64,000 nucleotides of DNA from Anisakis pegreffii. Lineage: Eukaryota; Nematoda; Chromadorea; Rhabditida; Anisakidae. Shown here in pieces: positions 2,933 to 61,200 of the stretch. The translations under genes were made by a program, and so were the position numbers. Numbering within the stretch: position 1 is the stretch's first letter; each line of letters opens with the position of its first letter. The DNA is taken from contig JAPYMA010002875.1 in the NCBI GenBank assembly GCA_035041965.1, positions 1 to 64,000 of the forward strand, given 5' to 3'. The notes under the pieces were generated by a model. The model had not been told where the DNA came from and made no database searches. It worked only from the letters and a program-made list of their open reading frames with translations.

Positions 2933-3926
2933 TCACAACGGCAATCCACTGAATGATTTCATCACTTCGGCACTGCATTCAGCCACCAAATCAGCGCTAC
3001 AACACGAGTTCGGTGCTTCCGATGCGCAAACCGCTATAACCCCAAACAGCGAGCCCTGCAAATGTGGCAGCAGATGGATGACACGTTTCATTATTGGTTT
3101 CATGCTTTGTTCCCTTTCGTCTGTACTCACTCTGCGCCCATGAAAACGCTTCATTCCTTCCGCAATCTTATCTCGGATCGCTTTGTATTGCTCACGAGAT
3201 CGATACCCTCGCCAAAACGCCTTCAAACATGCACAATTATCAAAACAATCTCAGATTTAAACTCTAGATCGCACTTTTTTAAAACCTGTATACCTGTATC
3301 ATCGTAACGACTTTTGTTTTCCTTTCTAGGTCTTTTCGAGATTTCAGCTCCTTGTAAGCACATCGCGCAAAATAACCTCTTACGATACTCTGCAAAAAAA
3401 TTGTTCGAATCAACAAATTGTTAGCAAATTAACTAGATCAAATGAACTACAATTTATCATAACAACTAAAGAAATCGAACGAACAATTCTCATCCTGACT
3501 ACTCTTCCAATTTGAATCGCACGCATACTCTGAAATCTTCCAACTCGTTCCCAAATCGCATCAAATCTTCTACCTGAATCACAACTGCGGCTGCTTTCGA
3601 TCTTTCCAAATCTCTCAGTACCTTCAGTTCTCGGAACGCACGTCGTGCCAAGTAACCTTGACTAACACTCTAAAACTATATGCTATTTATTATAGCTCCC
3701 ACCGACTTCATCAATAAAATATTATCACTCATAGACTCCGTTCTCTTGTTTACTAAATTCTTTTTATACTTGGATTCAGTAAAATAACAAATGAACAAAA
3801 ATATTAATTCATATTCAACACAATTTTACCTGCATGACGATAGCTGCCCTTACATTTTCTTCCATTTCCTTTTCAGCTCTTAGCGGTCTACAAGCGCAAT
3901 GTGCAAAATAACCGCGTGCATAACTC
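2933..3926 (-). CDS. IQ-motif (calmodulin-binding) repeat protein, 3' part
   Basis: Minus-strand exons, read 5' to 3', are 3926-3830, 3669-3574, 3389-3294, 3220-3131 and, tentatively, 3055-2933 (stop TGA at 2933). The first four each carry one IQ motif with cores such as RGYFAR, QGYLARRAF and WRGYRSREQY. In the first three the exon border falls inside the motif: each exon ends ...VIQ or ..VMQ and the next begins S-x-x-x-G-Y. The second and third are exactly 96 bp (32 codons, phase 0). The first has the same 32 codons plus one base, so its acceptor is less certain. Acceptors are TTTTAG or TTTGCAG; the fourth exon ends at a strong GTGAGT donor. IQ motifs bind calmodulin or myosin light chains. 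The 5' end, which would identify the protein (myosin-like, ASPM-like or other), was not found upstream. The last 41 codons are not family-like. Confidence 0.6.
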
Positions 3927-9869: not shown

Positions 9870-11133
9870 TAGGGTTTGCACGGGATCCCGGGATCACAGT
9901 TCTGATTCCGATCCCGAGATTTAAGTATTGAAAATCCCAGGATTTCGGGATTTCATAAAACAGGTCAATTTTTGTGAAGTTTGATAGTATGGCCATTAAT
10001 TTATATGAAGCAAGCCTTAATCATTCCCATCAAATTTATATGCAGTTATCTTTGCTGTTTGCCCCTATCATTGATGTTCAGCTAATTGTAAGGAAATAGA
10101 CGCAATTCGGACGGATGACATGATCAACGACAGCTCGATGAACTTTTACGTATGATTTCATTGAAGATTCAACTGATTATTCTCCTCTTCACTGGTTTAT
10201 ATCACCCTCATCTGAATGTATTTCTATGTAATAGACTAACACAGATAATCACATTTCCTAATAAAAACCAAGAGCAACAAAGTTCAATGAAATTTTGAGT
10301 CGTTTCCTCCCACAAAATTTGTTCGGCTTCAATATTCCATCTGTTAATTCAACTGCATGTTCCAAAGACTGCAAGTCTTTTTACTTCGCTATTTGGAAAT
10401 GTTTTCATCCGATCGAAATGTCCTTAAGTTCTCACTGAGTTCACTCATAGTGAGAGTTCATTACCGAAGTGAGCAAAGTTGTTCCAAGCTTGAATATCAA
10501 GTACATTTGCATGATTTTTGATCGAAATTATCAAAAATGTAAGTGCTCGATGGTTCGATGAAAATCCATTGCGGATATTTTTTTACCTTTTTAGATAAAC
10601 TTCGAACTTTTGATTACTTCGAAATTCAAATATAGTGCATGCGGTGCATTTCTTCCGCAAAAAGTCGAAATTTCCGAAACGGCAGAATTCAGCTGACATT
10701 AATACTGAGAGAAAATGGACTTGAAACATTGCAAATAAGTGTTTGAGAATCAAGAATTTCATATTCACATGCAAGTGTACTGTTATTAGCTTAGACCCGA
10801 GATGACAAGATGCCTTAGCATAGAATATGCAGTATGCCTTTGCGGCATGATCATTAGCATCATTATATGAAATATTAATTTGAAATTGAGTACTTAGTTC
10901 CTTGGATTTGTTCAATAATTTGTTGAATTAGCTCCTTTCTGGTTAATAATGAACATATTGGTTCGAAAAAATGTGTTTAAACATATCCCGCAATGATATT
11001 TCAATAATTGTTCGATCCCGGGATTATCCCGGGATCAAAAATCGATCCCGGGATTATCCCGGGATCAAAAATCGATCCCGGGATTAAATCCCGATCCCGG
11101 GATTGAAAAAATGTCGGGATTTTGCAAACCCTA
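9870..11133. mobile_element. Non-autonomous hAT-superfamily transposon, 1,264 bp
   Basis: The element begins TAGGGTTTGCA and ends with the exact complement TGCAAACCCTA. It is flanked on both sides by the same 8 bp, ATCACAAC (9862-9869 and 11134-11141). Eight-base duplications and ends of this type are diagnostic of hAT elements. Inside each terminus lie repeated palindromes ATCCCGGGAT (9888-9955 and 11013-11105), which probably serve as sub-terminal transposase-binding sites (inference). No transposase is present; the longest open frame (10583-10915, minus) shows no hAT features. A hAT transposase encoded elsewhere would have mobilised it. Confidence 0.85.
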
Positions 11134-15570: not shown

Positions 15571-17277
15571 CGTATACTGTTCAGTTGGTATAACATAAAA
15601 CTGGTTTGAAGTCAACTTTAAATGATTAAATTCAATATTCAGTCAAGACAAGATTGTTTGTGTCAGAAATGATCACAGGAACAGAATGTATTGATCCTGA
15701 CGAATGCTCAACTCATTTCGATACAATGAAAGACCTGTGAATTCCATTGGACCTAGCTAATTCTGTTGGGAATTAATTAACAAATTGTAGTTTGAAACTA
15801 ATAGAGTTGAATGGCGGAAATGAAAATTCAGTTTGTAATACAATACGAAAAGCTAACGAAGCAGAAAAGGAGATATAATGTATTGTGAAATCAACTTGAA
15901 GATACGTGTGAACTGTGATGCATTCGGACTAGATAAGTCAGGAATAACTTGCTTCCATAATTGGTTTCCATAATCATCATTGATTCAGGTTCAGTCAAAT
16001 AGGTGATTTCACTTGACAAACGTAAACCCTTTCAGCTGTTGAACACTATTCTTCATCGGCCATTGGTAGCAGCTGATATTGATGATTGACTTTCTATACT
16101 GTTTAATTGACTTATCACTGCTACTTGGACTATGAATGTCTCATTATGATCTTTTCAACAAGGTCTTTGCGAAACATGTCAGTTGATCGAATTCGTTATC
16201 GTAAAATAAACATAAGATAGAGACCAACGTATATTTTTATTGAGGTACAACGAAACGTCGTGAAATGATGAAAAATTTTATTGCTAAAAGCGTTATCATT
16301 ACATTGCGTGATTGCAATAAAAAACAGTCGAAGTGACAGCAAGGGATTAACATTCAACACGAGCACAAAAAATTATTTTCATTAATGACCTGATTCACGG
16401 AAAAAACAGTGAACATTAAACAGTTCGTTGAATTGTAGGCTTGAAGAAAATTATGAAGTTATTTTCATATTCCCTTCAATTGATAAAACTCGTGAAAGCG
16501 AATAATTTGAACGACGGTGAATACAATTACATTGCGTGACACACCTTTTACCGCATAACTGCTGCTGAAAAAAAATGGAAGATTGATAGTTACTCTTTCG
16601 AAACAGCAATTCGAAACACCAGCTGGAAGAATAAGTGCAATGCTGGAAGGAAAGCTTAAACTTATGTAATGAAGTGGTGATAAATTTCAGCGTGAATTTC
16701 TAGCTGACGTGAAATAATTTCATAAATCTAACGGAAATTCGTTTGCAGAAACCCATGATTTCATATCTCCTCCATAAACCACAACTTAAAAACCTGCTAT
16801 CGCGCTAACGTGCTAAAAGTTGCTGTTAGGTATACACTAATGTGACAGAAATAAGCAAGGCAAATCGCCTCGGTTATTATTATCACCGTAAGCACCCGAA
16901 AAGTGCCTTGAGGCTGTCATTAATACCTGTGCTGAGACTACTGCGTGATTGCGACTGTTTGGATTGATGTGCACGTTTTCAGCGGATCAGCGATTAGTGC
17001 GCTAACTTTTTTCGTTAGTGTGCCCATCATTGGTTTCCAGCTAATTCTATCACACAAATTTTGTTTATTGTCTCAATAATGTATTGTTAATTGAATTTCT
17101 TCTTTGTGTGTCTAAATTGCTGTGATAGGTGATTTTTTATTGAGGTTTGAGGTGAAATTCAGCGGTGATCGTCAAGTGAAGACGAATTCAATTGGGGTGA
17201 ATATTCATTAAAAATATTCCAAAGTCAAACATCACCTCTAATTTGAACAGAGTGTTACTTGAAACACTCAGTCTGAC
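15571..17277. other. Intergenic, repeat-containing
   Basis: No gene is seen. Bases 16790-17035 contain TAGCG/GCTAAC words and an end (CAATGATGGGCACACTAACG on the minus strand) related to the hAT-like MITE family at 6108-6564. Confidence 0.4.
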
Positions 17278-17458
17278 GAGGAAAGGTCACGAAGTTACCC
17301 CCGCCTTTCGGAATGAGACATATATCATATTGTAGGGCTCATGTAGCTGATCATGGATATGCAAAATATTTTGAAATGGACAAAGGGACGCGAGTTATGG
17401 CGCGAAAAAAGTTCTTAGCGTATTGAAGTGAGGTTCTAAATTTCTTTCGGTCATCGGC

Positions 17459-17525
17459 GGTCTGGCACGGTGGATAGTGCGCCAGCATCGAGTATGAGTG
17501 CCCGGTGGTTCTCCCCACGCTCGCG
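17459..17525 (+). other. tRNA-like (pol III promoter-like) segment in the fold-back arm
   Basis: TGGCACGGTGGATAGTG resembles a tRNA A box with D-loop, and CCGGTGGTTCTCCCC, about 35 bases on, resembles a B box with T-loop. The mirror copy is at 18358-18424 on the opposite strand. A good acceptor stem and canonical TTCGA are not seen, so this is more like the head of a tRNA-derived SINE than a functional tRNA gene. Confidence 0.3.
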
Positions 17526-17643
17526 AAACTTTTTTCTCCTGGTTGGCTTTGAAAACAAGTTGTGATAAATCAACTACTACTGGTGATGTCTCTATACCAA
17601 TTTTTTGAAAACTGTTCTATTCTGTTTTTTCGAGCTCATTATT

Positions 17644-18045
17644 ATGGAACGGTTTTCCACGTCTACTGTGGTCGTTTTACTGTGCGAGAAGTTCGGTGTT
17701 GGAGATGCCTCTTCGGCAACCAGAGCGGAGAAGAAAATGGCGCAAAAACTAGCCGATATTATTATGCGGCATACGAAGGGTAATGAGTTGAAGATGGAGG
17801 AAGATGAAGAAATTTGCAATGAGAGTGAGGATAAAGGTGAATCGTCGGAGAATATAGATGATGGTGTCCTCGTTGTTCCGGATAAAGTTGCTTTCAGCAA
17901 CGGTAAACTCATTAGCGCATCGGATGTTCATCGCGCAATTGATTTCTGCCGCTCAACGAGTGATGAACACAGACCACTTTCTTCGATGCTCACAATGTCC
18001 AGATTTATCAGCAATAAAAGTGATATGAAACGGCCACACTTTTGA
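17644..18045 (+). CDS. Hypothetical protein inside the inverted-repeat element
   Basis: An ATG-initiated 133-residue frame runs from the left arm's inner border to TGA at 18043-18045. It has a hydrophobic start (STVVVLLCEKFGV), a Lys/Ala-rich helix (TRAEKKMAQKLADIIMRH), an acidic middle (MEEDEEICNESEDKGESSE) and a polar end with SASDVHRAIDFCRS. Codon use and composition look coding. No family is recognised. It fills most of the spacer of a mobile-looking element, so it may be a remnant of an element protein or a captured host exon. No splice partners were identified. Confidence 0.4.
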   Translation: MERFSTSTVVVLLCEKFGVGDASSATRAEKKMAQKLADIIMRHTKGNELKMEEDEEICNESEDKGESSENIDDGVLVVPDKVAFSNGKLISASDVHRAIDFCRSTSDEHRPLSSMLTMSRFISNKSDMKRPHF

Positions 18046-18599
18046 AGGGAAACAAACATGCATCAATAATGATCTTTGCCCAATGGTGGTGTTAATTTTG
18101 ATTATCGTTGCTCTCGATTTCTCGGTAGTAGTAATTAGTGATGTCTCTATTCCAATTAAACTTTTCTATTCCTGTTCTGTTCCATGAAGTGTTCGTAAAT
18201 GAGGAAGGAACAGTTTGGAACAAAATAGAGCCGTTTTCGAGCTCAAAAAAACCGAATAGAACAGTTTTAAAAAAATTGGTATACAGACATCACTAGTAGC
18301 AGTTGATTTATCACAACTTTTTTTTCAAAGCCAACCAGGAGAAAAAAGTTTCGCGAGCGTGGGGAGAACCACCGGGCACTCATACTCGATGCTGGCGCAC
18401 TATCCACAGTGCCAGACCGCCGATGACCGAAAGAAATTTAGAACCTCACTTCAATACACTAAAAACCTTTTTCGCGCCATAACTCGCATCCCCCTTGTCA
18501 TTGCAAAAATTTTTTGCATTTCCATGATCAGCTACATTAGCCCTGCAATATGATATATGTCTCATTCCGAAAGGCTTGAGTAACTTCGTGACCTTTCCT

Positions 18600-19540
18600 A
18601 GTGAGTCAATTGTTATTCTTGACTCTAGCAATTGTTATCGTTCTTGAATATCTCGGCCGTTAACAAGTTAATTTGAGGCACTGTTATTGTAAATCACGGT
18701 CTACCGCCGATATTATTCTCTAAGGCATATTGTAGACTATTCCTCGGCAGAACGGTAATCGTCACGTCGGATATCATCCGCACGATTCTGGATCAACCAT
18801 TCTCAACATCACGACGCAGTGACAATTTGTTGGTGGTTCACTTGTTATGACTATTGTAGCAGTTACTAGCATAATTGTTCATAGGTGTTTCTGTTGTGTG
18901 CAATTGTTTTAGTAAGATATGTGAGATAATTTGTCCATCAATTCTTGAATTATTGTGGAAGTGTTTTCTTGTTGCTTGCTTCGTGTTTTCATTATTTGTG
19001 GTTTGTTGTTATCAATAAAATCACTGAATACGAGGCTGTCATCGTGACATTCTTGTTCAAGTCAACGGATTATTCGAACCGGAATATCAGATTTCTATCT
19101 TTTTGTCGTAAATTTTACGCCAGAATGAGACCGCAGTCAATTAAGATCACGATTCTGCCCCCCCTCCCCCTTTGCCCCTAGAATGCTGTTTACCAGCTTC
19201 AGTTGAAAAGGCTAGTTTGATTAGATACTTTTTTAAAAATCTACTCACTTTAATATTACAGCGGCAGTTGAACTTCAACAAGCTCCGAAGTACGGTCGAT
19301 GATAATGGGCTGAAAATCATCTCATTCTATTAGTAATAAACAATTGCTGAATATTTTTGCGAGCCTCCAAATTATTTGGCACTCTGTTCTTGAATACTTA
19401 TCAGTTTGCGTAAGCGCTAGTTTTCCGAGATCTATATAAACATCAACAGATTTTTATGCGTAAATGAATGCTGAAAATTTTATAGTTATTCTCTGCTCAA
19501 AGCTTCAAAACGTGAATACTCTTCAAACTTGATTCGCTAT
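18600..19540. other. Intergenic
   Basis: No exon with supporting splice signals is seen. It lies downstream of the 3' end of the minus-strand repeat gene and may include its 3' UTR. Confidence 0.4.
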
Positions 19541-22500
19541 TCATTTTTTAGACACAATGTGAAAGTTCTTATACCGTTCCAAGAATTTCAAATTCATTGA
19601 TAAATTAAACAAATTATCAGGGACCAAATTCGAACTTCTTTTCAAAGACCTGACAATGAGCAAACAATGAACAGATGATGGACGGACCTTGCGGGATTTG
19701 GATTGATATCGCTGCAACTTTTTATTGCGATGAATCTTCCGAGCTATTCGTTCAGCTTGGTATTCTTTGTCATATGCAGCATGAGCCTCGGGTTCGCTGT
19801 ATGAATATTTTTGTGACTGTGAACAGCTTCGTGACTGCTGATCTCGTTGTTTTCTCATCGTAGTCCACTTATCACGCTTCATTTTGAACCGTGGTTGATT
19901 TTTAGTTGTCATTTGCGGGGCACTTTGTGAAACCCGAATTTGATGTGAATGTCTTTTGTTTTTGTGTTTCGTTCGTGGCTGAGAGCAAATAATCGTTTTT
20001 TCATTTCGTTTCAGTCGTCCGTGCTGCTCATTTCCACTTGCCGCATTCACTGTGGGGTGCGAAGTTTTTGATTCATTCGACGACTGCTTTTCATTATGAC
20101 TTCGACATTCAAGTTCAATTGCAGTCTGCATCGTCTGTGACGTCTTCCTATTTTGTTTAGGATGTCGATTTGCATTACTTTTATTGGTCATTTTCGGCGA
20201 ACCCTTCGTGATCTCCATTAATTTTGCTCCATCCCTTGACTGCTTTTGATCTCGTTTATGTCTAATTTGTTTCGTTCCATCGGACCACTTCTCTCGTTCA
20301 GGATGGCGTTGAGGCGATTTTTGCTTTTGACTGTGCCCGATTAATTGCGTTGACTGCGTCACTCGAGTGTTGTCATGAAACTGAAAAAAAGAATCATGAA
20401 AATTTTCGCCGACGAACTAAAAATTCGAAGTGTACAACTTGTAATATTCGAATGAAAGCAACAACTGTTCCGGTCACTCAAAAATATTTAGCGTTCAAAT
20501 TACATCTCTTCAAGCCTCATTCTCGAACATGACATGAGCAAGATTCAACCATCGGTAACCGAGTAATATTATAAAGATAGTAAGTTAACGATTTCATTAA
20601 CTCACATGTTTTGATTGATATCGTTCTGGGAGAGCATTATGTTGATTCTGCAACATCTTTTTTAGAGGTATTTGTGACGTCAGCATCATTTTTGCATTCT
20701 TTTCTGGAGGGTTCCATAACCGACTTCGGCCCTCTAATGGAACAAAATTTTGCTTTGAGTAGAATCGCAACGGTTTCTGCTTTGCTGTGCAATACACACG
20801 ACCCAAATTTACACTATATGGTGCCGTTAAATATCTTTGTCCCCCTCTTATCATTTCCAGAGCAGCTTGTATGATCGGAACGAGATTACGATTTTTCTGT
20901 TCCGCTCCTATTTCTGTTCTGTTTTGTTTGGACATATCCAGAGCAGTTTGCAGTAACCGTACCAGCCTTGAATATTCTTGTTGTAGGCTTGATAGCTCCG
21001 CGTTTCGTCTTGTCATGTCCAGTGCCCTCTGCAACAGTTCCGTCACCTTCGAGAGCTGCTCCGGTTGTGGGGATTGGTTACTTGCTTTGGTGACTTCCAA
21101 TGCCATTTGTAACAACTCTGCCAATTTACTACTTTGTGGTATTATTTCCGGTTGTTGGTTTTGCCTTGTCATTTCCAGAGCAGCTTGTAATAATAGTGCC
21201 ACATACGGATTTCCCCGAAAGATCTCTTGCGACTCCTTTTGTCGTGTCATTTCTAGGGCAGCTTGCAACATTCGTGCCAGTTCAACTCCACTCCGCCACC
21301 CTGACGATTCTTGATTTCTTTTTACGATTTCCATGTGAGCCACCGACCTCTGCCTAGCAATGGGATTTTTTTGTAATTGTCTAGACTCAGAGGTTTGGTT
21401 TGTTCGCCCTGAAGCCACGCTCAGTATCGGCATACTTTCCTCCTGCCATTTGTGTATGAATTGCGGTACAGTTGATAGGTTGTTTGGTAGTTCCGTTCTA
21501 CCTTGCATCTAAAAATCAATGATCAATTAAATCAGAACACATTGTTTAACCCGAACATGTTTACTTTAATGGACTTTCTAATGATTTATAGATCTGGATA
21601 TAGTTCTAGTCACATGATTCTGTGGCAAAAAATTAGTTAATTCGGTGAACTGGCGTTTCATAGCCATGATTAGAGAAGCATTATGCACGTGAGGTGATTC
21701 GTGATCGAAAATTGTTTCTGATCAATCAACATTCTGTTGTAATTAGTGAGCAGTTTACAAGCGGTCTAGAAAAGTTACGTCATAACGTTGTAGATAGTCA
21801 TTCATTTGTTGGTACTGTGAATTTTGCTTCGGGGGTGTTGCAGGTTGCACACATGGTTTTGTCATTTCCAACATCTGTAATGTGATTCATTACTCATCAT
21901 TTTTTCATATCTCTTCAGTAAAAACTGGGCATAGTCTGTGACAAAAATGCATTTTGTTCTACTTAATTTCCTCTCGTCGTTTCAAGCTTTGAACATAGGG
22001 TTTGGTTGTTTATTTTGTCTGTGTGTTATCATTTCAAGCGCATTTTGCAATGTGCTTACCGCGTTCCCACTGTTTGATGACGTTCGTCGAAGCTGACTCT
22101 GTTTTGTCACATTCAGTGCAGCTTTTAGCATTTTCACGACTTCCTTAGCATGCTCTGGTTCAATTAGATCATGGTTTTGCCTCCTTGTCATTTTCAATGC
22201 GCTCTGTAACATCTCTCTTAATCTTGCGTTTGCTAACAGTCCTTGCTCATTATTCCGTTGTGTTGCTTCCGGCTCAGTTTGCGATGTGTTTACCATCCTT
22301 GCATTTTGCAGGAGTTCGTTATTGCGTTGGTCCTGTTTGGTCATTTCCAGAGCATTCTGTATGATCGGCACAAGCTTTGAACTTTGTTGCATTTTTCTTC
22401 GATTTTCGTTTTGTCTTAGCATTTCCGGTGCTGCACAAAGCATTGCGGCATGATTCTGAATGTCCTGTAATCGATCTTGCTCCGCGTTTCGTCTTTTCAT

Positions 22501-25500
22501 GTCCAGTGCCCTCTGCAACAGCTCCGTCACCTTCGAGAGCTGTTCCGGTTGTGGAGATTGGTTACATGCTTTGGTGACTTCCAATGCCATTTGTAACAAC
22601 TCTGCCAATTTACTACTTTGTGGTATTATTTCCGGTTGTTGGTTTTGTCTTGTCATTTCCAGAGCAGCTTGTATGATCGGAACGAGATTGCGATTTTTCT
22701 GTTCCAATCCTATTTCTGTTCTGTTTTGTTTGGACATATCCAGAGCAGTTTGCAGTAACCGTACCAGCCTTGAATATTCTTGTTGTAGGCTTGATAGCTC
22801 CGCGTTTCGTCTTGTCATGTCCAGTGCCCTCTGCAACAGCTCCGTCACCTTCGAGAGCTGTTCCGGTTGTGGAGATTGGTTACTTGCTTTGGTGACTTCC
22901 AATGCCATTTGTAACAACTCTGCCAATTTACTACTTTGTGGTATTATTTCCGGTTGTTGGTTTTGTCTTGTCATTTCCAGAGCAGCTTGTATGATCGGAA
23001 CGAGATTGCGATTTTTCTGTTCCAATCCTATTTCTGTTCTGTTTTGTTTGGACATATCCAGAGCAGTTTGCAGTAACCGTACCAGCCTTGAATATTCTTG
23101 TTGTAGGCTTGATAGCTCCGCGTTTCGTCTTGTCATGTCCAGTGCATTCTGCAACAGCTCCGTCACCTTCGAGAGCTGCTCCGGTTGTGGGGATTGGTTA
23201 CTTGCTTTGGTGACTTCCAATGCCATTTGTAACAACTCTGCCAATTTACTACTTTGTGGTATTATTTCCGGTTGTTGGTTTTGTCTTGTCATTTCCAGAG
23301 CAGCTTGTATGATCGGAACGAGATTGCGATTTTTCTGTTCCAATCCTATTTCTGTTCTGTTTTGTTTGGACATATCCAGAGCAGTTTGCAGTAACCGTAC
23401 CAGCCTTGAATATTCTTGTTGTAGGCTTGATAGCTCCGCGTTTCGTCTTGTCATGTCCAGTGCATTCTGCAACAGCTCCGTCACCTTCGAGAGCTGCTCC
23501 GGTTGTGGGGATTGGTTACTTGCTTTGGTGACTTCCAATGCCATTTGTAACAACTCTGCCAATTTACTACTTTGTGGTATTATTTCCGGTTGTTGGTTTT
23601 GTCTTGTCATTTCCAGAGCAGCTTGTATGATCGGAACGAGATTGCGATTTTTCTGTTCCAATCCTATTTCTGTTCTGTTTTGTTTGGACATATCCAGAGC
23701 AGTTTGCAGTAACCGTACCAGCCTTGAATATTCTTGTTGTAGGCTTGATAGCTCCGCGTTTCGTCTTGTCATGTCCAGTGCATTCTGCAACAGCTCCGTC
23801 ACCTTCGAGAGCTGCTCCGGTTGTGGGGATTGGTTACTTGCTTTGGTGACTTCCAATGCCATTTGTAACAACTCTGCCAATTTACTACTTTGTGGTATTA
23901 TTTCCGGTTGTTGGTTTTGTCTTGTCATTTCCAGAGCAGCTTGTATGATCGGAACGAGATTGCGATTTTTCTGTTCCAATCCTATTTCTGTTCTGTTTTG
24001 TTTGGACATATCCAGAGCAGTTTGCAGTAACCGTACCAGCCTTGAATATTCTTGTTGTAGGCTTGATAGCTCCGCGTTTCGTCTTGTCATGTCCAGTGCA
24101 TTCTGCAACAGCTCCGTCACCTTCGAGAGCTGCTCCGGTTGTGGGGATTGGTTACTTGCTTTGGTGACTTCCAATGCCATTTGTAACAACTCTGCCAATT
24201 TACTACTTTGTGGTATTATTTCCGGTTGTTGGTTTTGTCTTGTCATTTCCAGAGCAGCTTGTATGATCGGAACGAGATTGCGATTTTTCTGTTCCAATCC
24301 TATTTCTGTTCTGTTTTGTTTGGACATATCCAGAGCAGTTTGCAGTAACCGTACCAGCCTTGAATATTCTTGTTGTAGGCTTGATAGCTCCGCGTTTCGT
24401 CTTGTCATGTCCAGTGCATTCTGCAACAGCTCCGTCACCTTCGAGAGCTGCTCCGGTTGTGGGGATTGGTTACTTGCTTTGGTGACTTCCAATGCCATTT
24501 GTAACAACTCTGCCAATTTACTACTTTGTGGTATTATTTCCGGTTGTTGGTTTTGTCTTGTCATTTCCAGAGCAGCTTGTATGATCGGAACGAGATTGCG
24601 ATTTTTCTGTTCCAATCCTATTTCTGTTCTGTTTTGTTTGGACATATCCAGAGCAGTTTGCAGTAACCGTACCAGCCTTGAATATTCTTGTTGTAGGCTT
24701 GATAGCTCCGCGTTTCGTCTTGTCATGTCCAGTGCATTCTGCAACAGCTCCGTCACCTTCGAGAGCTGCTCCGGTTGTGGGGATTGGTTACTTGCTTTGG
24801 TGACTTCCAATGCCATTTGTAACAACTCTGCCAATTTACTACTTTGTGGTATTATTTCCGGTTGTTGGTTTTGTCTTGTCATTTCCAGAGCAGCTTGTAT
24901 GATCGGAACGAGATTGCGATTTTTCTGTTCCAATCCTATTTCTGTTCTGTTTTGTTTGGACATATCCAGAGCAGTTTGCAGTAACCGTACCAGCCTTGAA
25001 TATTCTTGTTGTAGGCTTGATAGCTCCGCGTTTCGTCTTGTCATGTCCAGTGCATTCTGCAACAGCTCCGTCACCTTCGAGAGCTGCTCCGGTTGTGGGG
25101 ATTGGTTACTTGCTTTGGTGACTTCCAATGCCATTTGTAACAACTCTGCCAATTTACTACTTTGTGGTATTATTTCCGGTTGTTGGTTTTGTCTTGTCAT
25201 TTCCAGAGCAGCTTGTATGATCGGAACGAGATTGCGATTTTTCTGTTCCAATCCTATTTCTGTTCTGTTTTGTTTGGACATATCCAGAGCAGTTTGCAGT
25301 AACCGTACCAGCCTTGAATATTCTTGTTGTAGGCTTGATAGCTCCGCGTTTCGTCTTGTCATGTCCAGTGCATTCTGCAACAGCTCCGTCACCTTCGAGA
25401 GCTGCTCCGGTTGTGGGGATTGGTTACTTGCTTTGGTGACTTCCAATGCCATTTGTAACAACTCTGCCAATTTACTACTTTGTGGTATTATTTCCGGTTG

Positions 25501-28500
25501 TTGGTTTTGTCTTGTCATTTCCAGAGCAGCTTGTATGATCGGAACGAGATTGCGATTTTTCTGTTCCAATCCTATTTCTGTTCTGTTTTGTTTGGACATA
25601 TCCAGAGCAGTTTGCAGTAACCGTACCAGCCTTGAATATTCTTGTTGTAGGCTTGATAGCTCCGCGTTTCGTCTTGTCATGTCCAGTGCATTCTGCAACA
25701 GCTCCGTCACCTTCGAGAGCTGCTCCGGTTGTGGGGATTGGTTACTTGCTTTGGTGACTTCCAATGCCATTTGTAACAACTCTGCCAATTTACTACTTTG
25801 TGGTATTATTTCCGGTTGTTGGTTTTGTCTTGTCATTTCCAGAGCAGCTTGTATGATCGGAACGAGATTGCGATTTTTCTGTTCCAATCCTATTTCTGTT
25901 CTGTTTTGTTTGGACATATCCAGAGCAGTTTGCAGTAACCGTACCAGCCTTGAATATTCTTGTTGTAGGCTTGATAGCTCCGCGTTTCGTCTTGTCATGT
26001 CCAGTGCATTCTGCAACAGCTCCGTCACCTTCGAGAGCTGCTCCGGTTGTGGGGATTGGTTACTTGCTTTGGTGACTTCCAATGCCATTTGTAACAACTC
26101 TGCCAATTTACTACTTTGTGGTATTATTTCCGGTTGTTGGTTTTGTCTTGTCATTTCCAGAGCAGCTTGTATGATCGGAACGAGATTGCGATTTTTCTGT
26201 TCCAATCCTATTTCTGTTCTGTTTTGTTTGGACATATCCAGAGCAGTTTGCAGTAACCGTACCAGCCTTGAATATTCTTGTTGTAGGCTTGATAGCTCCG
26301 CGTTTCGTCTTGTCATGTCCAGTGCATTCTGCAACAGCTCCGTCACCTTCGAGAGCTGCTCCGGTTGTGGGGATTGGTTACTTGCTTTGGTGACTTCCAA
26401 TGCCATTTGTAACAACTCTGCCAATTTACTACTTTGTGGTATTATTTCCGGTTGTTGGTTTTGTCTTGTCATTTCCAGAGCAGCTTGTATGATCGGAACG
26501 AGATTGCGATTTTTCTGTTCCAATCCTATTTCTGTTCTGTTTTGTTTGGACATATCCAGAGCAGTTTGCAGTAACCGTACCAGCCTTGAATATTCTTGTT
26601 GTAGGCTTGATAGCTCCGCGTTTCGTCTTGTCATGTCCAGTGCATTCTGCAACAGCTCCGTCACCTTCGAGAGCTGCTCCGGTTGTGGGGATTGGTTACT
26701 TGCTTTGGTGACTTCCAATGCCATTTGTAACAACTCTGCCAATTTACTACTTTGTGGTATTATTTCCGGTTGTTGGTTTTGTCTTGTCATTTCCAGAGCA
26801 GCTTGTATGATCGGAACGAGATTGCGATTTTTCTGTTCCAATCCTATTTCTGTTCTGTTTTGTTTGGACATATCCAGAGCAGTTTGCAGTAACCGTACCA
26901 GCCTTGAATATTCTTGTTGTAGGCTTGATAGCTCCGCGTTTCGTCTTGTCATGTCCAGTGCATTCTGCAACAGCTCCGTCACCTTCGAGAGCTGCTCCGG
27001 TTGTGGGGATTGGTTACTTGCTTTGGTGACTTCCAATGCCATTTGTAACAACTCTGCCAATTTACTACTTTGTGGTATTATTTCCGGTTGTTGGTTTTGT
27101 CTTGTCATTTCCAGAGCAGCTTGTATGATCGGAACGAGATTGCGATTTTTCTGTTCCAATCCTATTTCTGTTCTGTTTTGTTTGGACATATCCAGAGCAG
27201 TTTGCAGTAACCGTACCAGCCTTGAATATTCTTGTTGTAGGCTTGATAGCTCCGCGTTTCGTCTTGTCATGTCCAGTGCATTCTGCAACAGCTCCGTCAC
27301 CTTCGAGAGCTGCTCCGGTTGTGGGGATTGGTTACTTGCTTTGGTGACTTCCAATGCCATTTGTAACAACTCTGCCAATTTACTACTTTGTGGTATTATT
27401 TCCGGTTGTTGGTTTTGTCTTGTCATTTCCAGAGCAGCTTGTATGATCGGAACGAGATTGCGATTTTTCTGTTCCAATCCTATTTCTGTTCTGTTTTGTT
27501 TGGACATATCCAGAGCAGTTTGCAGTAACCGTACCAGCCTTGAATATTCTTGTTGTAGGCTTGATAGCTCCGCGTTTCGTCTTGTCATGTCCAGTGCATT
27601 CTGCAACAGCTCCGTCACCTTCGAGAGCTGCTCCGGTTGTGGGGATTGGTTACTTGCTTTGGTGACTTCCAATGCCATTTGTAACAACTCTGCCAATTTA
27701 CTACTTTGTGGTATTATTTCCGGTTGTTGGTTTTGTCTTGTCATTTCCAGAGCAGCTTGTATGATCGGAACGAGATTGCGATTTTTCTGTTCCAATCCTA
27801 TTTCTGTTCTGTTTTGTTTGGACATATCCAGAGCAGTTTGCAGTAACCGTACCAGCCTTGAATATTCTTGTTGTAGGCTTGATAGCTCCGCGTTTCGTCT
27901 TGTCATGTCCAGTGCATTCTGCAACAGCTCCGTCACCTTCGAGAGCTGCTCCGGTTGTGGGGATTGGTTACTTGCTTTGGTGACTTCCAATGCCATTTGT
28001 AACAACTCTGCCAATTTACTACTTTGTGGTATTATTTCCGGTTGTTGGTTTTGTCTTGTCATTTCCAGAGCAGCTTGTATGATCGGAACGAGATTGCGAT
28101 TTTTCTGTTCCAATCCTATTTCTGTTCTGTTTTGTTTGGACATATCCAGAGCAGTTTGCAGTAACCGTACCAGCCTTGAATATTCTTGTTGTAGGCTTGA
28201 TAGCTCCGCGTTTCGTCTTGTCATGTCCAGTGCATTCTGCAACAGCTCCGTCACCTTCGAGAGCTGCTCCGGTTGTGGGGATTGGTTACTTGCTTTGGTG
28301 ACTTCCAATGCCATTTGTAACAACTCTGCCAATTTACTACTTTGTGGTATTATTTCCGGTTGTTGGTTTTGTCTTGTCATTTCCAGAGCAGCTTGTATGA
28401 TCGGAACGAGATTGCGATTTTTCTGTTCCAATCCTATTTCTGTTCTGTTTTGTTTGGACATATCCAGAGCAGTTTGCAGTAACCGTACCAGCCTTGAATA

Positions 28501-30832
28501 TTCTTGTTGTAGGCTTGATAGCTCCGCGTTTCGTCTTGTCATGTCCAGTGCATTCTGCAACAGCTCCGTCACCTTCGAGAGCTGCTCCGGTTGTGGGGAT
28601 TGGTTACTTGCTTTGGTGACTTCCAATGCCATTTGTAACAACTCTGCCAATTTACTACTTTGTGGTATTATTTCCGGTTGTTGGTTTTGTCTTGTCATTT
28701 CCAGAGCAGCTTGTATGATCGGAACGAGATTGCGATTTTTCTGTTCCAATCCTATTTCTGTTCTGTTTTGTTTGGACATATCCAGAGCAGTTTGCAGTAA
28801 CCGTACCAGCCTTGAATATTCTTGTTGTAGGCTTGATAGCTCCGCGTTTCGTCTTGTCATGTCCAGTGCATTCTGCAACAGCTCCGTCACCTTCGAGAGC
28901 TGCTCCGGTTGTGGGGATTGGTTACTTGCTTTGGTGACTTCCAATGCCATTTGTAACAACTCTGCCAATTTACTACTTTGTGGTATTATTTCCGGTTGTT
29001 GGTTTTGTCTTGTCATTTCCAGAGCAGCTTGTATGATCGGAACGAGATTGCGATTTTTCTGTTCCAATCCTATTTCTGTTCTGTTTTGTTTGGACATATC
29101 CAGAGCAGTTTGCAGTAACCGTACCAGCCTTGAATATTCTTGTTGTAGGCTTGATAGCTCCGCGTTTCGTCTTGTCATGTCCAGTGCATTCTGCAACAGC
29201 TCCGTCACCTTCGACAGCTGCTCCGGTTGTGGGGATTGGTTACTTGCTTTGGTGACTTCCAATGCCATTTGTAACAACTCTGCCAATTTACTACTTTGTG
29301 GTATTATTTCCGGTTGTTGGTTTTGTCTTGTCATTTCCAGAGCAGCATGCAGTGTCGACTGTAGATTGTTTTCTTGTATTTCTCTTTTTATCTCTTGTTG
29401 TTTTGTCAGGCTGAATTCTGCTTTCCCTGTCGATCCCAAATTCGATTCCTCTTGTGTTGTTGTTTTCATATCCTTGTGTTTTGTCTTTTCAAGATCAGTT
29501 TGTAGCGTCTTTATTTGTTCTTCGTTTCGCCGTGTAAAATTTTCTTGTGGTTGATTTTTATCGGTTTTTAACTTCGCTTTTTGCTGTATATTCATCGTTT
29601 TTGTACTCCTTCGGGTTCGTATCATGTCCTGGTTTTTATTTTCTGATTTTAATTCAGTTTGCGATGTTATCGAATCCGGTTCTTTATGTTCACTTGTATC
29701 TATCAGTGCCTAAAAGTGGTAATTTTATGATGGTTTTGAAAGCTGGCAGAATTCTGCAATAAGCTCATGCTGAGTCAAGAACCTGTTCACTTCGTAATTC
29801 ATCTAATCTATCAACCCATTGGTTCCCTGTCCCACTCAAGACGTTTTTATCTTTATTTTTTTCGATTTCATGACTCGTAATTCAGAAAAAGTCGAAACTT
29901 CTTTGCAAAGGTCAAGTCAATATTCCTGCTTTTAGATATTACTCACTTTTTGAATTTGATCATTGCTTTGTTCATTGACTTTTGATTTGTTGACTTTCAC
30001 TTGTTTTGGTTTTGCGATGAATGCTTTGTATACCCACTGCAAATCTATTGTTTCAAACGTCAACAAATCTCAACTTCACAATTCATTCAATACAAAATGC
30101 AGTTAATAATTTACAAGATACGCATCCACTTAGTGTATCGTCGAGAAAATTACTGCTGACCTTCGACTTTCTTGCACGAGGATTTGTTGAATTTCTCGTT
30201 CTGTCTATTTTCTGCAAATTTCAATCTTGGCTCTTTCCAATGCTTGGTTATTATCGATGTTATGAAAAATTATCTAAACTAAATTTAATGCTAAGTGGTA
30301 TATTATTCAATCAATTTCTGTCTGTAAGTCTTCATGTATGGCAGCACCACAATAAGCACATATCAAGCGAATGCTGGGATTAGTCGACGAGAGTGATGCA
30401 GATTTTTATGGAGAATTTAAAATCATCGTAGTAATCCTTCTGCGTTTTGCAAACGTTTTAGGTGAAGACATAGGAACCATCTGCCCTCAGTGGGACATTC
30501 TATTTGTTGGTGGAACGATTGATCAATATAAATATTTAGTGGATGAATTGCTCATTAATGGCGACAGACACCTCAAAGTTGAATTTTTTTGTTGTGTCCT
30601 GCTTTGTTTTTCAAATATTTCGTGGATTTTAAACGCTTCACTGATTTCAGATATGAGAAGTGAGGAATGACTGGATAGCATTTGAATGGTTACCGTTGTT
30701 ATATCATGCAAAACGTTGATATCTTTCTTTCCTTTTGCTATTAACCCACCTCCAGGTAAAACCTCCTGCAATGCTTTATTTCATCACATTGAAAAGATCA
30801 TTTATAGAGTGGAGACTTACAGCCTGCGACAT
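19541..30832 (-). CDS. Giant LLQxALxMT-repeat protein
   Basis: Exons in the 5' to 3' direction are 30211-30122, 30036-29947, 29709-22060, 21874-21779, 21508-20606 and 20380-19541 (stop TGA). All junctions are phase 0 with good signals (donors GTGAGT, GTAAGC, GTAACT; acceptors TTTGCAG, TTTTAG, TTTTTTTCAG), giving at least 3,222 residues. A possible first exon encodes MSQA (30832-30821) and joins in phase to 30765, but the link from there to 30211 is unresolved. The 7.65-kb exon is almost wholly 106-residue units. Each unit has four related 26/27-residue motifs of the form [LI]-[LI]-Q-x-A-L-[ED]-[MV]-[TS]-[RK], and looser single motifs flank the array. The N-terminus is Lys/Gln rich; the last exon is very basic (Lys, Arg, Gln, His, Ser). 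No signal peptide, membrane segment or catalytic motif is visible. It is probably a helical scaffold or filament protein; its function is unknown. Retaining the intron after 22060 would instead end the protein at TGA 21982. Confidence 0.65.
20859..21176 (-). repeat. Extra 318-bp unit in a separate downstream exon
   Basis: One complete unit, nearly identical in DNA to the array, sits in exon 21508-20606, separated from the array exon by two introns and a 96-bp exon. It carries the Arg variant and one Leu-to-Ala change (TCCGCTCC for TCCAATCC). It is flanked by older, diverged single motifs (ARMLQAALEMTRQ, IIQAALEMIRGGQ). Confidence 0.9.
22661..29338 (-). repeat. Tandem array, 21 units of 318 bp, inside one exon
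   Basis: The landmark AGAGCAGCTTGTATGATCGG recurs every 318 bp, and 29339-22661 is exactly 21 periods. Partial units flank it on both sides (about 22480-22660 and from 29339). Internal units look identical by eye. Differences concentrate in the edge units: the two nearest 22.5-23.1 kb have GCCCTCTGC instead of GCATTCTGC (Arg for Asn), and the unit nearest 29.2 kb has a synonymous TCGACAGC change. The period is a multiple of three, so copy-number change keeps the frame. Because one unit lacks stops in an antisense frame, the opposite strand is also open for 2,364 codons. Confidence 0.95.
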
Positions 30833-42084: not shown

Positions 42085-44957
42085 ATGTTTCACTGGAATT
42101 CACGGAACGCATTATTGTTTAAAAGATTATTATTTGTCGTGATATTGGCTGATGTGAAAGCATTTCGTCAGCAGCCAAGTGCAGATTTTGAGAAGGACGT
42201 GATAACCGAAATAGATGGATCATCACTGCTTGCAACACGCGGCGATCTTCTTAAAGAGCATTCCCTTGTCAAGCCTTATGAAGGTTCATGAACTACATCA
42301 CAACATCACTGAACTGATAAAAAAGATAGTTGTATTGCTGGATTGCATGGTCTCGAGCAAAAGATCTTACATGCGTGTTTGATCATCTGAGTCATCATTG
42401 TGAGTCCCTGCAGTTTGGTGTGCGCATTAATATTCCTTAGGGGTGTAGGTCTGAGCGCCGTTGAGAATAGAACGGTCGAGGCAGACTGACAAGGTTAGAA
42501 TTTGGGATTTAAAAATACGACTGAGTGGTAGAATTCGGTAGTTGTGATATCGTATTTGGTGGACACCTCAGATGTTCAGGAAGTGAAACAGAGGGAGGAT
42601 AGAAGCAGTAGACAAGATTGACTTTCACCAAATATTTGTGGTTGATGGGTATGCAGCCCAGTTTTGTTCGAGTCATAATGTGTAATGAAAAAATTAGGAT
42701 CAGCATGGCTCATGGCCGGCTTTGCACTAATCTCCAATCAGTTCGTTCGACTTACCCCCGACCATCCTGATCGAATGGGTGCAGTAGCTGATGTTATGGT
42801 TCGTTTATCCAGTGCATTATTATTGTAATCCTTACTAAAACCTTGAACTTGATAAGAAATCAGAACAAGAAACCATAAGCACACTGACTTGAGTCAGTTT
42901 TGCTCGAAAGTTCATGGCTGATTATCTTTTGAAAAGAATCAAGTGTTGCGATCAAAATCTTAATGTTGAGTGATGAGTCACTTGAGTTCTTTCAGCTGAA
43001 TTCCCAAAAGATATTTTGTGAAGGTCACATCCAAACTCATCCTTCCTCTTTTCTTTAAGAATCTGTTTGTAATAGTGATGTTCGAAGTTATGTTTCAAGC
43101 CATTCAATTACCGATCCTGGGAAGTGGAGTTGACGTTGAAGATCTACAGTCCCGATCTGCATAAACCTGGTGATGGAATGGCGTTTTGGTATGTCAACGA
43201 GATTGACAGACAAGGACGAGCGTTTGGCTTTCCAGATCTTTTTCGTGGTTTGGGATTGTTCATTGACACGAAAAAGCATGACTTCACCGACGCGAATGTG
43301 TGATCTTTTCAGTGAATTCATCCCATCATTGGCTTACATTCAAGCATTCATCAGCCCATAAAATCATTATGTTCTTGTCCGGAAATCCATCTGTCATCTG
43401 GCATAGCTTGAACAAAAGATGCGTGAGCAAAAATCGTGTCACGCGTAAATGATGACTTGAAAAATGTTGCCTCTTATTAAATAAGATTCCTAAAGCGAAT
43501 GCTTGCTTCTCAAATTAGGGAATTCTCAAAAAAGAGTCCAGAAAACAGCTGCTTTCCTCATAAATTATCTGATTTACAGCATAAACATCCATTCATATCG
43601 GCAACAGTCAATAACGGCAGTATGCAATACGTTCACGATGCATTAGGAACGCATTTGCAACTTGGTGGTGAAAATGGTGGTTGTTATGCATCGTTGTACG
43701 GTGATCAGTACGACCCATCGAAAATTCTGATACGTTATGCTGAACGCACTCTATCGGTAATTTCGTTTTGCATTGCTTGAAAGATATTCTTTCTGACTAA
43801 GTTAAAACACTGTTAATTGAGAAATATCACATGTATCCTTAATAGAAATATGCAGGATGAACACCTTTCACTGTGAATTCTGTGCCTGACTAGTGGGAAG
43901 CGGGAGCATGCTTTAAGGAAGATGCGACAGAAAATAGCAGAGGTGGATAATAGCGCACTATTCGCTCACTTTTGCTAACTAGCAAAAATTAACGAAATAG
44001 CTATTCTGCTAACTTTCGCTACTTGGCGAAAATTAGTAGAATAGCGGAATTTTTGCTCACCTCTGGAAAATAGATCAGACGAGAGAAGTTACTTTTTGTA
44101 AAAGTAATGAGAAATATGTTAAGGTATTCGTAGCGGAACCTGGCGAAAGTAATTGGAGGTTGTGTATGGAATCTGAAGGAGTTATCTTGCCTCGGGGTTA
44201 TCACTTCGCTGTTTCTGCGTCAACCGGGATGAAAACTTCTGGTCAATATTTCATTATGTTAATTATTTTTGCTGATTCCGGCAAATAAGCAACAAGTGAG
44301 CTATTCAGCAGTCTCACAGCCTTAAAAATGAGTGAGTACGGTAATGGTACTAACCGATTAACCAAAATTTCCTTAGTTGCCTCAGAATTATTTCTTAATT
44401 TTCGCGGTCATGCGTATTTTCTCGACCTCGTTCGAAGTACAACAAAAGACGCATTTGGATGTTTGATGCCGAAGATCCACTCTATTATTATGTATTGGAA
44501 AATCAACGTGAACGCATCCAGAATTTCGAGTTTTCTTGCAGTGGTAACTGAAGATATTCATGTTATAATGGATTATAGAATTTTTGCAGTACTTTTTAAT
44601 TTATCACCTCGCAACAGTGCCATCTTCAACTGCAAAATGAGTTTATTAATTTGAGTGATGGATTCATTAAAAGTGTTTGTGTTCATTCTTGCAGAAATTC
44701 ATGAAATCATTTCAATCCGTGTATTTGCGTTGGAATCGGTCAATAGTGAACAAGATTTTGAAGATGAACGAAATGTGATATTCGCCGATCAGATGGCACC
44801 CGAGCGTGTCTATGCTGGTGTATTCAAAAAAGAATTTGATTTCTTTGGAACAATTTTGATTTTTCTATTACCGATTGTTGTAATTGCGCTCATATTAACG
44901 TTCATATTTGTTCGAGTCGCGGACAGTGTGAGTGTTCGTTCGAAGCGATTGTTTTGA
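42085..44957 (+). CDS. ile-2: VIP36/LMAN2-type L-type lectin (cargo receptor)
   Basis: Six exons join in phase: 42085-42283, 42698-42798, 43100-43297, 43580-43756, 44124-44241 and 44695-44957 (stop TGA), 351 residues against about 356 for mammalian VIP36. A signal peptide (ALLFKRLLFVVILADVKA) precedes the lectin domain: EHSLVKPYEG, NQFVRLTPDHPDR, GDGMAFWYV, GLFIDT, PFISATVNNGSMQYVH and NWRLCMESEGVILPRGYHFA. A single membrane helix (GTILIFLLPIVVIALILTFI) and a short tail ending RSKRLF follow. Family members cycle between ER, intermediate compartment and Golgi and bind high-mannose glycans with calcium. The Asp of IDT, the Asn of VNNG and the following His are kept, but the family's G-D-L loop reads GMK and the residue after DT is Lys, so sugar binding may differ. 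TTTGCAG lies directly before the ATG, as for spliced-leader addition. Confidence 0.88.
43938..44065. mobile_element. 128-bp hAT-like MITE in a lectin-gene intron
   Basis: The ends are CAGAGGTGG and CTCACCTCTG, with the exact 8-bp duplication GAAAATAG on both sides (43930-43937 and 44066-44073). The interior is made of TAGCG, GCTAACTTTCGC and GCAAAAATT words on both strands, linking it to the repeats at 4680-4935, 6370-6564 and 16790-17030. Confidence 0.85.
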
Positions 44958-58200: not shown

Positions 58201-61200
58201 ATGCGTTCTGCATCACTTCCTCATTTTTCAGTCGACATCATTTTGGGAATGCAGGATGACGGCAAATTAAAAATTGAAAAATGAAAACAGCTGCACACTG
58301 TTATCAACGATATAATTTATGTGATTTTGACATAGTAACAGAAACAGACGTTAAATTGAATGCAGTCGAATCGAATCAACATAGAGTGCTTTGTGTGTTG
58401 CAGAGATGTATTAGTATGGTATGAAAAGCAATTGGCTAAGTTGCATTTACCTGAAGGATTGGAGTGGGACATGTGGGGAGCACTTTTTTACGTTGGAACA
58501 CTTTTCACAACTATTGGTTTGCTTATGATTGTTAATCAGTTCTTGTTTCCTGTTGTTGTCAAAACCTTCGAAATGCTCTTCAATCCAACACCAGGAACTG
58601 TTTTGCCTTTTTAATGGATGGAAGTTGCCTCACCTCAAACAGAATCGAACTGCTGTTTGTCAACGCACGATTGCAAACGTTTCTATGATAAAGTTCACTT
58701 AAGATTTGAGAAATGACCGATACTTTTCAGACTGATGATATAATCCATATTTATCGGACACATTCGTATTTCATTGATCACGTTTTAGGCTACGGTAATA
58801 TAGCGCCACGAACGACGTTTGGTCAAGCATTGAGCATTATGTATGCGATAGTTGGAATCCCTCTTGTGTTAGCCATTCTGAATCAGTTCGGCAAAACGCT
58901 TACTAAATTTCTCAGTAGTCTCTGGATAAAGTGAGTTGCTTGACACAAATGTGACCTTACAGAATGAGATCTTTGAAATCGAATTCAACGGAAATATTGA
59001 TTGACATTTTAATTTTTATATTTTTCAACGATGTCAATCAAGTTGATGATTTCAACAAAATTTATGAAAGCCTGAAATATTTACAATCGTTTTCAAAGAG
59101 TTGTCTATCAAATTCTTCATATTTTGTCATAACATCCACTGAAAAAATTACCAGGTATCGCCAATGCATCAAGGCATTCACGAAACGCAAACGAATTGCA
59201 TCGAAAATGCGAACGAGTCGTATTTGGGGTGAACGTTTGCGTCAGAAACAAGATGAAAGGTAATATGAAACCAACCTTTCACAGCATTAAAAAACGGCCG
59301 ATAACATAATCGCTCAACAAGCTACTTGCACATTGTTGAACTTGATTTTCTCACCAGAAAATTCCAGCAAAAAAATTGTAAAGTGGTGATTACAAGTTTA
59401 TACGGACAGATCAGAAAAATTAGTGACTTCACGGAACTGATTATTCTGTTCTAGTATCACATTCTTATGAAATCAAAAACATAGCACTGTTAATTTGAAC
59501 TATTTGAGATTTGCAATCAGTTTGTCACCAAATTTTCACGAAATGCAGTTTGACAGTCCACCGAAAGCTGAACCATCGTATATTGAGACATTCGTTTTGT
59601 AACGAATGTGCACAAAAATGGATGGATGAATCTAATCAAAATTCATATTTCATTGAGCATTTCAAAAATCTCCGAAGATATCCTCCACCAAAATTTTTCT
59701 CGGACACAAATGATTAGTAGCATAAATGAAAGTTTTTGTTTTGTTTTGTTTGATTTGATCACTGAATGTTTTGTTCAAATAATCAACGCTGCCGAAGAAG
59801 TCGTTGATAGAGAATGCTCCTGAGCTGGGAATGTTGCTCGAGGAAATTATTTTTAGAGATTTGTTAACTGTGGAAGAAGGTGGTGTTGGAAATGTACCTC
59901 AAACGAATCACTCGCTTCTGAATAATCCGAACCTGGAAGACGATTTTTTGGACGACGAGTTACTGGAGAGCAGGTCATAGTTGCACATTCATATTCTCTA
60001 CTTGTACGCATCTGGAAGCATTTATGCAGAGAGAACATTCGAGTGAGCTTTCGAGGATGAGTTTCTGAATCTTAGCAGAGATCAGTGATAACGCAATGAA
60101 TAAACTCTGAAATATGAAGAGAGATTCGAATAATTTAGAACGATACCAGTATGGCTAGCGTTGTTTTTGTGTGTTGCGTGGATCTGTGCATGTGCAGGAT
60201 TGTTTTGCTTATGGGAAACAAGATGGTCGTATTTCACTTCGTTGTATTTCTTTTTTATATCACTTTCAACGATCGGTTTGGGTCAGTTTCTTCCACACTT
60301 TGCTGCTTATTCATCATTTCGTTATATTTTATCCTCTTCACTACTACAACGACGAGATCAGATGAATGCATGTGCATTTATGACTGAACATTTATGACAC
60401 AAAGAAAATTATCATAAATTCACGACTTCAGTGCAATCCATTGTATCACTTTCAGTAATCTGAGTCAAAAGATGTAAACAAATTTATCAGATTGAGCACA
60501 GAAATCGATGTGATACAAAACAGCACAATTCAACTACCGTTTTGCCTGCAATTGAAACGGGAACAATTTTTGCTCGATAGAATGGGATCAGTGATGGTGT
60601 GAATGTTGTGAGGTTGTTGAAGATTTACTGTTATAGGTGATGTTGTTCCTGATCATCCCCATATGTTAATTCTGATGTTTTGGTTGGTTATAATTGGCTT
60701 ATCAATTGTATCGATGCTCTTGAGTGTTATTCAAATCAAAATAGAAGAATGGCTTTATCATTTGATGATTCGGATGCGGGTGAGTCGAGTGCCTCTAATC
60801 AATTACAATTGGTGTTCTTATAATTCAGTAGTTCAACTGTTCGATAGCAGTGACTGAAATCCACTGAAAACACACTAGAAATTACACGATGAAGAGTATT
60901 TTCCTCAAAATCCGTTTATCATAGCAATTTTCTGACGATAAGTTATCCATTAACGTCAGATTTGTTTTGAAGGATGTTTTGAAATATACGAAACGGACTG
61001 ATCGCGGTGCTTTAGGTGGGCACAGAAAAGTTATAGATTCATTTTCTGATGGAACTGATTAAAGATGATCTATATGACGTATTATTTCGTAGAACGTCTT
61101 TGGTTTCATAAATTCATGCAAAATCTTATTTAAAATCTATTGCAATAAATCGAGTTGCTTACAGAAAGAATATCAACGCGCCTTGGCGAATGGGGATCCA

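Follow-up and report, generated by a model that had tools for sequence, protein, structure and literature searches.

The window that we analysed is a 64,000-nucleotide stretch of Anisakis pegreffii DNA (positions 1 to 64,000 of contig JAPYMA010002875.1, assembly GCA_035041965.1). On its minus strand, between 19541 and 30832, lies a locus whose core is a single open frame of 2,575 codons without interruption (21982-29709, from the open-reading-frame list), most of it occupied by a tandem array of near-identical units. An earlier note on this DNA, made from its letters alone, had placed this frame within a six-exon gene. The features of the locus are listed below, with splice sites scored against a consensus using thresholds that we set ourselves.

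30821..30832, minus strand: exon 1 of the model, with the start ATG (MSQA); donor below threshold
30694..30765, minus strand: proposed exon 2 of 24 codons; neither splice site reaches its threshold
29947..30036, minus strand: proposed exon 3 of 30 codons, in phase 0 on either side; good donor, but acceptor under threshold
21982..29709, minus strand: exon 4 and main open frame, comprising an A-rich head of 121 codons, the array and a diverged tail; stop TGA at 21982-21984
22479..29346, minus strand: array of 106-residue (318-bp) units
28378..28695, minus strand: query unit used for searches, with four sub-motifs of 26/27 residues
21985..22500, minus strand: tail whose copies are diverged and mostly resemble sub-motif 1; it extends beyond the proposed exon-4 donor as far as the stop
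20606..21508, minus strand: exon 5, 301 codons, with one near-identical unit and diverged copies; ATG directly after a good acceptor
19541..20380, minus strand: exon 6, a basic C-terminal region of 279 residues (64 K+R versus 22 D+E); no family match over cut-off
22460..29554, plus strand: antisense frame open for 2,364 codons, regarded as a side effect of the near-identity of the units

Tandem Repeats Finder reports a 318-bp period in 21.6 tandem copies with a 99% match, and of the 21 whole units 19 have exactly the same bases, the exceptions being unit 1 with 1 difference and unit 21 with 4. Each unit encodes four related motifs of 26, 27, 27 and 26 residues, whose summed pairwise BLOSUM score is 236, versus a maximum of 43 among 20,000 residue shuffles. 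The four-motif unit of 106 residues, repeated at least 21 times in one exon as the earlier note had described it, is thus supported at both of its levels. Searching the exon-4 frame with a motif pattern gives 92 copies; of the 91 spacings between them, 47 measure 26 residues and 43 measure 27, and the remaining one, of 51, is the site of a decayed motif copy. The frame continues from the end of the array into the diverged tail, another near-identical unit stands in exon 5, and motif copies recur downstream, with six in exon 5 and one, under a looser pattern, in exon 6. The exon-4 frame also holds 43 LxxLL boxes, two per unit; we considered these as nuclear-receptor boxes and take them instead as a by-product of the helix pattern.

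The three diverged single copies quoted in the earlier note are all present outside the array, and they bear on its proposal that a single motif came first, then the four-motif unit and then amplification. We compared nine edge or outside copies with the four sub-motifs and found them closest to sub-motif 1 in 8/9 cases by BLOSUM and in 7/9 by DNA; two of the nine (h0 and b1) lie at array edges and keep the array linker, and for tail copy c, one of the exceptions, the window is about 9 residues off, which voids that result. The 1-2-3-4 order is not repeated among these copies. Given both the likeness to sub-motif 1 and the missing order, the motif-first sequence of events fits, as if sub-motif 1 were nearest to the ancestor, and a tail formed as a decayed 1-2-3-4 run of the four-motif unit is not supported. 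A uniform middle with diverged edges is the pattern left by unequal exchange or gene conversion, and either process would keep the units alike. An assembler may miscount identical units, and the copy number of the array should be read with this in mind.

Coding evidence and gene structure

We assessed coding potential by comparing 10 distinct motif copies pairwise, codon by codon, the pairs being mutually dependent. In the sense frame, 153 of the 312 codon pairs that differ by a single base are synonymous, versus 73.4 expected, and this frame has the best BLOSUM score of the six (1.77) and no stop. Given the synonymous excess, we take the minus-strand repeat frame to be protein-coding. The antisense frame comes second by BLOSUM (1.29), contains one stop among these copies and also shows a synonymous excess (112/292 versus 65.1 expected), which we attribute to the wobble positions that the two frames have in common. 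Its 2,364 open codons are less likely to be a real gene: because it is second best, has the smaller excess and one stop, and ends near the array, we regard it as a by-product. When the bases of a unit were shuffled, any fully open frame occurred in only 154 of 5,000 cases.

The six-exon model joins all exons in phase 0 and gives 3,188 codons, or a protein of 364 kDa with an isoelectric point of 9.6, no membrane-like stretch, and leucine as the commonest residue (13.9%); glutamine makes up 13.1% and asparagine 6.7%. The splice sites are uneven, with 2/5 donors (29947 and 20606) and 2/5 acceptors (21508 and 20380) scoring over threshold. In addition, the donor proposed for exon 4, with 22060 as the last base of the exon, truncates a recognisable motif copy that continues in frame to the TGA. 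The six-exon protein that the earlier note put at more than 3,000 residues is plausible, although with splice sites that are partly weak and a motif that runs past the exon-4 donor, that figure describes a model and not an observation. A side observation falls within proposed intron 4, where 21854-21874 (minus strand), right after TTACAG, encodes MLEMTKP; this resembles the repeat motif and is possibly a further exon or a decayed copy.

Alternatively, the locus may hold two genes, one ending at the TGA at 21982-21984 (about 2,633 residues) and a second running from the ATG at 21508 (about 580 residues). We regard this as a serious possibility that falls somewhat short of an even chance, and it is compatible with any of the functions considered below. 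The motif copy that extends beyond the proposed donor to the stop argues for it, as does the start of exon 5, since an ATG directly after an acceptor is the arrangement found at trans-spliced starts and the genome has SL1 genes; exon 5 could be such a separate start. On the other hand, the canonical AATAAA is absent from 21480-22000, where the variants we tried gave ATTAAA at 21570, AATGAA at 21891 and 21806, and TATAAA at 21590, and the GCG/GTAAGC donor maintains phase 0, though it scores under threshold. As for the SL1 genes themselves, the genome holds at least 31 matches, 24 of them over the cut-off, which identifies the host as a nematode; in the one stretch examined they form a 552-bp tandem array in which they and 5S rRNA genes follow each other in turn.

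Known families and relatives

The earlier note had recognised no known family in this protein, and the profile searches agree within the stretches scanned. In Pfam, the single unit, exon 5, exon 6 and the N-terminal part all fall under the cut-offs; in NCBIfam, the three stretches that we scanned all stay below the cut-offs, and a match to RNA polymerase omega (38.9 bits, under its cut-off of 98) was set aside. As far as these tools reach, then, the protein is without a family match. The array as a whole does exceed Pfam cut-offs, for GRIP, sieve-element occlusion, catechol dioxygenase, TPR, Arm_PDR, UBA and AadA_C, all of which we reject as sums of sub-threshold matches. GRIP (PF01465) gives 13.2 bits for one unit against a cut-off of 24.4, 34.1 bits for a 405-residue stretch and 99.6 bits (E 8.5e-29) for the array, with no single stretch passing, and TPR_7 (PF13176) gives 14.6 bits for one unit against a cut-off of 27.9 and 64.1 for the array by summation only. 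Because unrelated families pass likewise and no single stretch is significant, we ascribe the array-level hits to summation over the repeats.

We then considered individual families across the genome (122.66 Mb in 1,740 contigs). The Spectrin repeat profile (PF00435) has 60 matches, none on contig C1652, which carries the locus, and when a single unit, the two downstream exons (5 and 6) and the N-terminal 171 residues were scanned at E ≤10, it was missing among their hits. The nematode polyprotein allergen (NPA) profile (PF16469) has 18 matches, on contigs C1694 and C74 only and none at the locus. Neither CH nor KASH domains occur among the hits, at E ≤10, of the N-terminal 171 residues, exon 5 and exon 6, the N-terminus of the gene being uncertain. 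Searched against the whole genome, exon 5 (E ≤0.001) and the array tail, exon 6 and exon-4 head (E ≤1) each match this locus only.

Beyond this genome, protein-database searches at E 0.01 returned no relatives for exon 5 (6,477 candidates) or for residues 1-460 of exon 4 (the 7,979 candidates with most words in common), in searches with limited word sensitivity and thin nematode sampling, and with proteins of about 530-1,416 residues outside both length limits. A control search with a neighbouring L-type lectin found three proteins, from Anisakis, Toxocara and C. japonica, among 184 candidates, which shows that the database has some nematode proteins. Among bacterial and archaeal genomes, 103 stretches fit a pattern, as did five in viral contigs, and none encodes a relative. 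A literature search for the repeat, its kind and five motif strings found no description of this protein within a coverage that largely excludes subscription papers. The best sequence matches in the PDB are designed helical repeat proteins.

As a precedent for a giant nematode protein whose helical repeats have been homogenised, the best that we found is ANC-1, the C. elegans nesprin orthologue, in which the repeats are homogenised at the DNA level and matter in vivo by their number (PMC8139857). As described there, ANC-1 resembles the present protein in being a giant nematode protein with near-identical helical repeats predicted to form helical bundles, but it has six copies of a 903-residue repeat together with CH and KASH domains, whereas here there are about 21 copies of 106 residues, and the parts scanned give neither a CH nor a KASH hit. 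On the domains tested, the protein falls outside the ANC-1 family.

Predicted fold and possible role

A fold prediction, as suggested by the earlier note, was made with AlphaFold2 without an alignment; the model is all-helical at low confidence (pLDDT 61), and each sub-motif shows a helical hydrophobic moment, in keeping with the regular amphipathic helices that the note had described. In this low-confidence model, each unit would form a helix of about 21 residues from sub-motif 2, one of about 46 residues from sub-motifs 3 and 4 together and one of about 24 residues from sub-motif 1. In Foldseek, the model matches the vinculin/alpha-catenin/talin group with an E of 1.6e-3 at best. The four-helix match covers sub-motifs 4, 1 and 2 and the next sub-motif 3, so that the 3-4 helix would be a strut between bundles. 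Taken with this low confidence, the model would have every motif form a helix, the helices pack in bundles of four and one helix run without a break from each unit to its neighbour.

The reading we favour, with close to an even chance in our estimation, is that the protein is a long intracellular rod or scaffold of four-helix bundles in which neighbours are joined by one continuous helix. The roughly 21 near-identical units would each supply a bundle, and copy number would set the length of the rod. The basic C-terminal part would bind an anionic partner such as a membrane, microtubule or nucleic acid, and may in this way anchor the rod. Where the earlier note had offered a scaffold, filament or condensate, the first two are reasonable and the model narrows them to a chain of bundles, while a condensate draws no support beyond the glutamine content.

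Spectrin repeats are three-helix bundles with a continuous helix between repeats, and the likeness to our unit extends to length (106 residues versus 105 positions in the Pfam model), to predicted helicity and to the proposed continuous inter-unit helix. However, the low-confidence model groups four motif-helices per unit and not three, and the spectrin profile hits fall on other contigs. Vinculin, alpha-catenin and talin share the predicted linked helical bundles, but with the low-confidence model the match stays short of significance, and these proteins are not known to be built of near-identical units. Our reading is of a rod or scaffold that resembles spectrin but arose independently, with a function that we infer. 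More doubtful, and on balance unlikely, is the stronger proposal of a new class of giant rod that arose in a nematode lineage from one 26-residue amphipathic helix, with a helix for each motif, four motifs per bundle, welds made by shared helices and length set by copy number; this would be an independent re-invention of the spectrin principle and a natural counterpart of designed helical-repeat proteins.

Among the competing explanations, an alpha-solenoid superhelix of the TPR or HEAT kind, acting more as a binding platform than as a strut, strikes us as improbable but worth weighing. The weak TPR_7 match of one unit and the designed proteins at the head of the PDB matches point towards it, and the sub-motif resembles the second TPR helix. 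Yet one unit stays under the TPR cut-off and the array passes by summation only, the motif period is 26/27 as opposed to 34 in TPR, and the low-confidence model groups the helices as bundles. Still less probable is a low-complexity, glutamine-rich protein that becomes helical only on multimerisation or on membranes, as a condensate, lipid-coating or cross-linked structural material. The glutamine and asparagine content, the Pro/Gln linkers and the low model confidence are consistent with it, whereas leucine is the commonest residue, every sub-motif carries a helical hydrophobic moment and the motif is kept across diverged copies.

We give very little credence to a secreted tandem polyprotein cleaved into single units in the manner of NPA. 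Such polyproteins carry a secretion signal, and the N-terminus of the six-exon model, itself uncertain and judged here without a dedicated signal predictor, lacks a hydrophobic stretch (first 60 windows ≤0.47). The organism is a nematode and near-identical, predicted helical units stand in tandem in a long exon, as in NPA/ABA-1; moreover, ABA-1A has a long central helix common to two helical bundles and K/R-X-K/R-R is the cleavage motif between units (PMC3079579). Here that motif is absent from every unit, and its one occurrence in the frame of exon 4 is at residue 31, ahead of the array; the units contain no Trp, Cys or Phe, and the NPA profile matches lie elsewhere. In this genome NPA also forms a higher-order repeat: scores in the array at C1694:130912-136925 recur every ~1,212 bp, or three units, so that it looks two-level, and the frame may change near 132.5-132.9 kb, where two of the matches are partial. 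Finally, it is hardly credible that the array is a satellite that codes for nothing, or that its copy number is an artefact of the assembly, for although the identity of the units, the open antisense frame and the risk of miscounting would allow it, open frames are rare in shuffled units, the synonymous excess is larger in the sense frame, the frame extends 121 codons ahead of the array and on through the tail, and the motif is kept in the diverged copies and the exon-5 unit.

Neighbouring features and meaning of the locus

Several other features lie in the window. The lectin used as a control has exons at 43079-44285 (plus strand) of the VIP36/ERGIC-53 type (PF03388); its identity to a protein of Anisakis simplex is 68%, which places the host in that part of the tree. 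Exons of a probable two-pore-domain potassium channel lie at 58710-60854 (plus strand), where PF07885 matches 58710-58931 (E 4e-10) and 60621-60854 stays under the cut-off. At 17273-18605, nested inverted repeats with arms of 86-196 nt, 87-93% complementary, surround a 152-codon frame (17587-18045) and look like a pair of foldback elements or of elements resembling miniature inverted-repeat transposable elements. A frame at 2936-3250 (minus strand) has a weak IQ-motif match (11.7 bits versus a cut-off of 20.3), and at 11012-11109 stands a short tandem repeat that has a palindromic core (ATCCCGGGAT).

The protein belongs with the giant homogenised helical-repeat proteins, a kind that is already known. 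It also carries a caution, in that profile scores summed over identical repeats produced an E of 8.5e-29 for a family that no single unit matches. If the fold reading is true, the locus preserves several of the steps from one short helix to a large helical repeat protein, since it contains single motifs that have diverged, the unit of four motifs and the array that was homogenised recently, and the origin of spectrin-like rods would become testable with short constructs.

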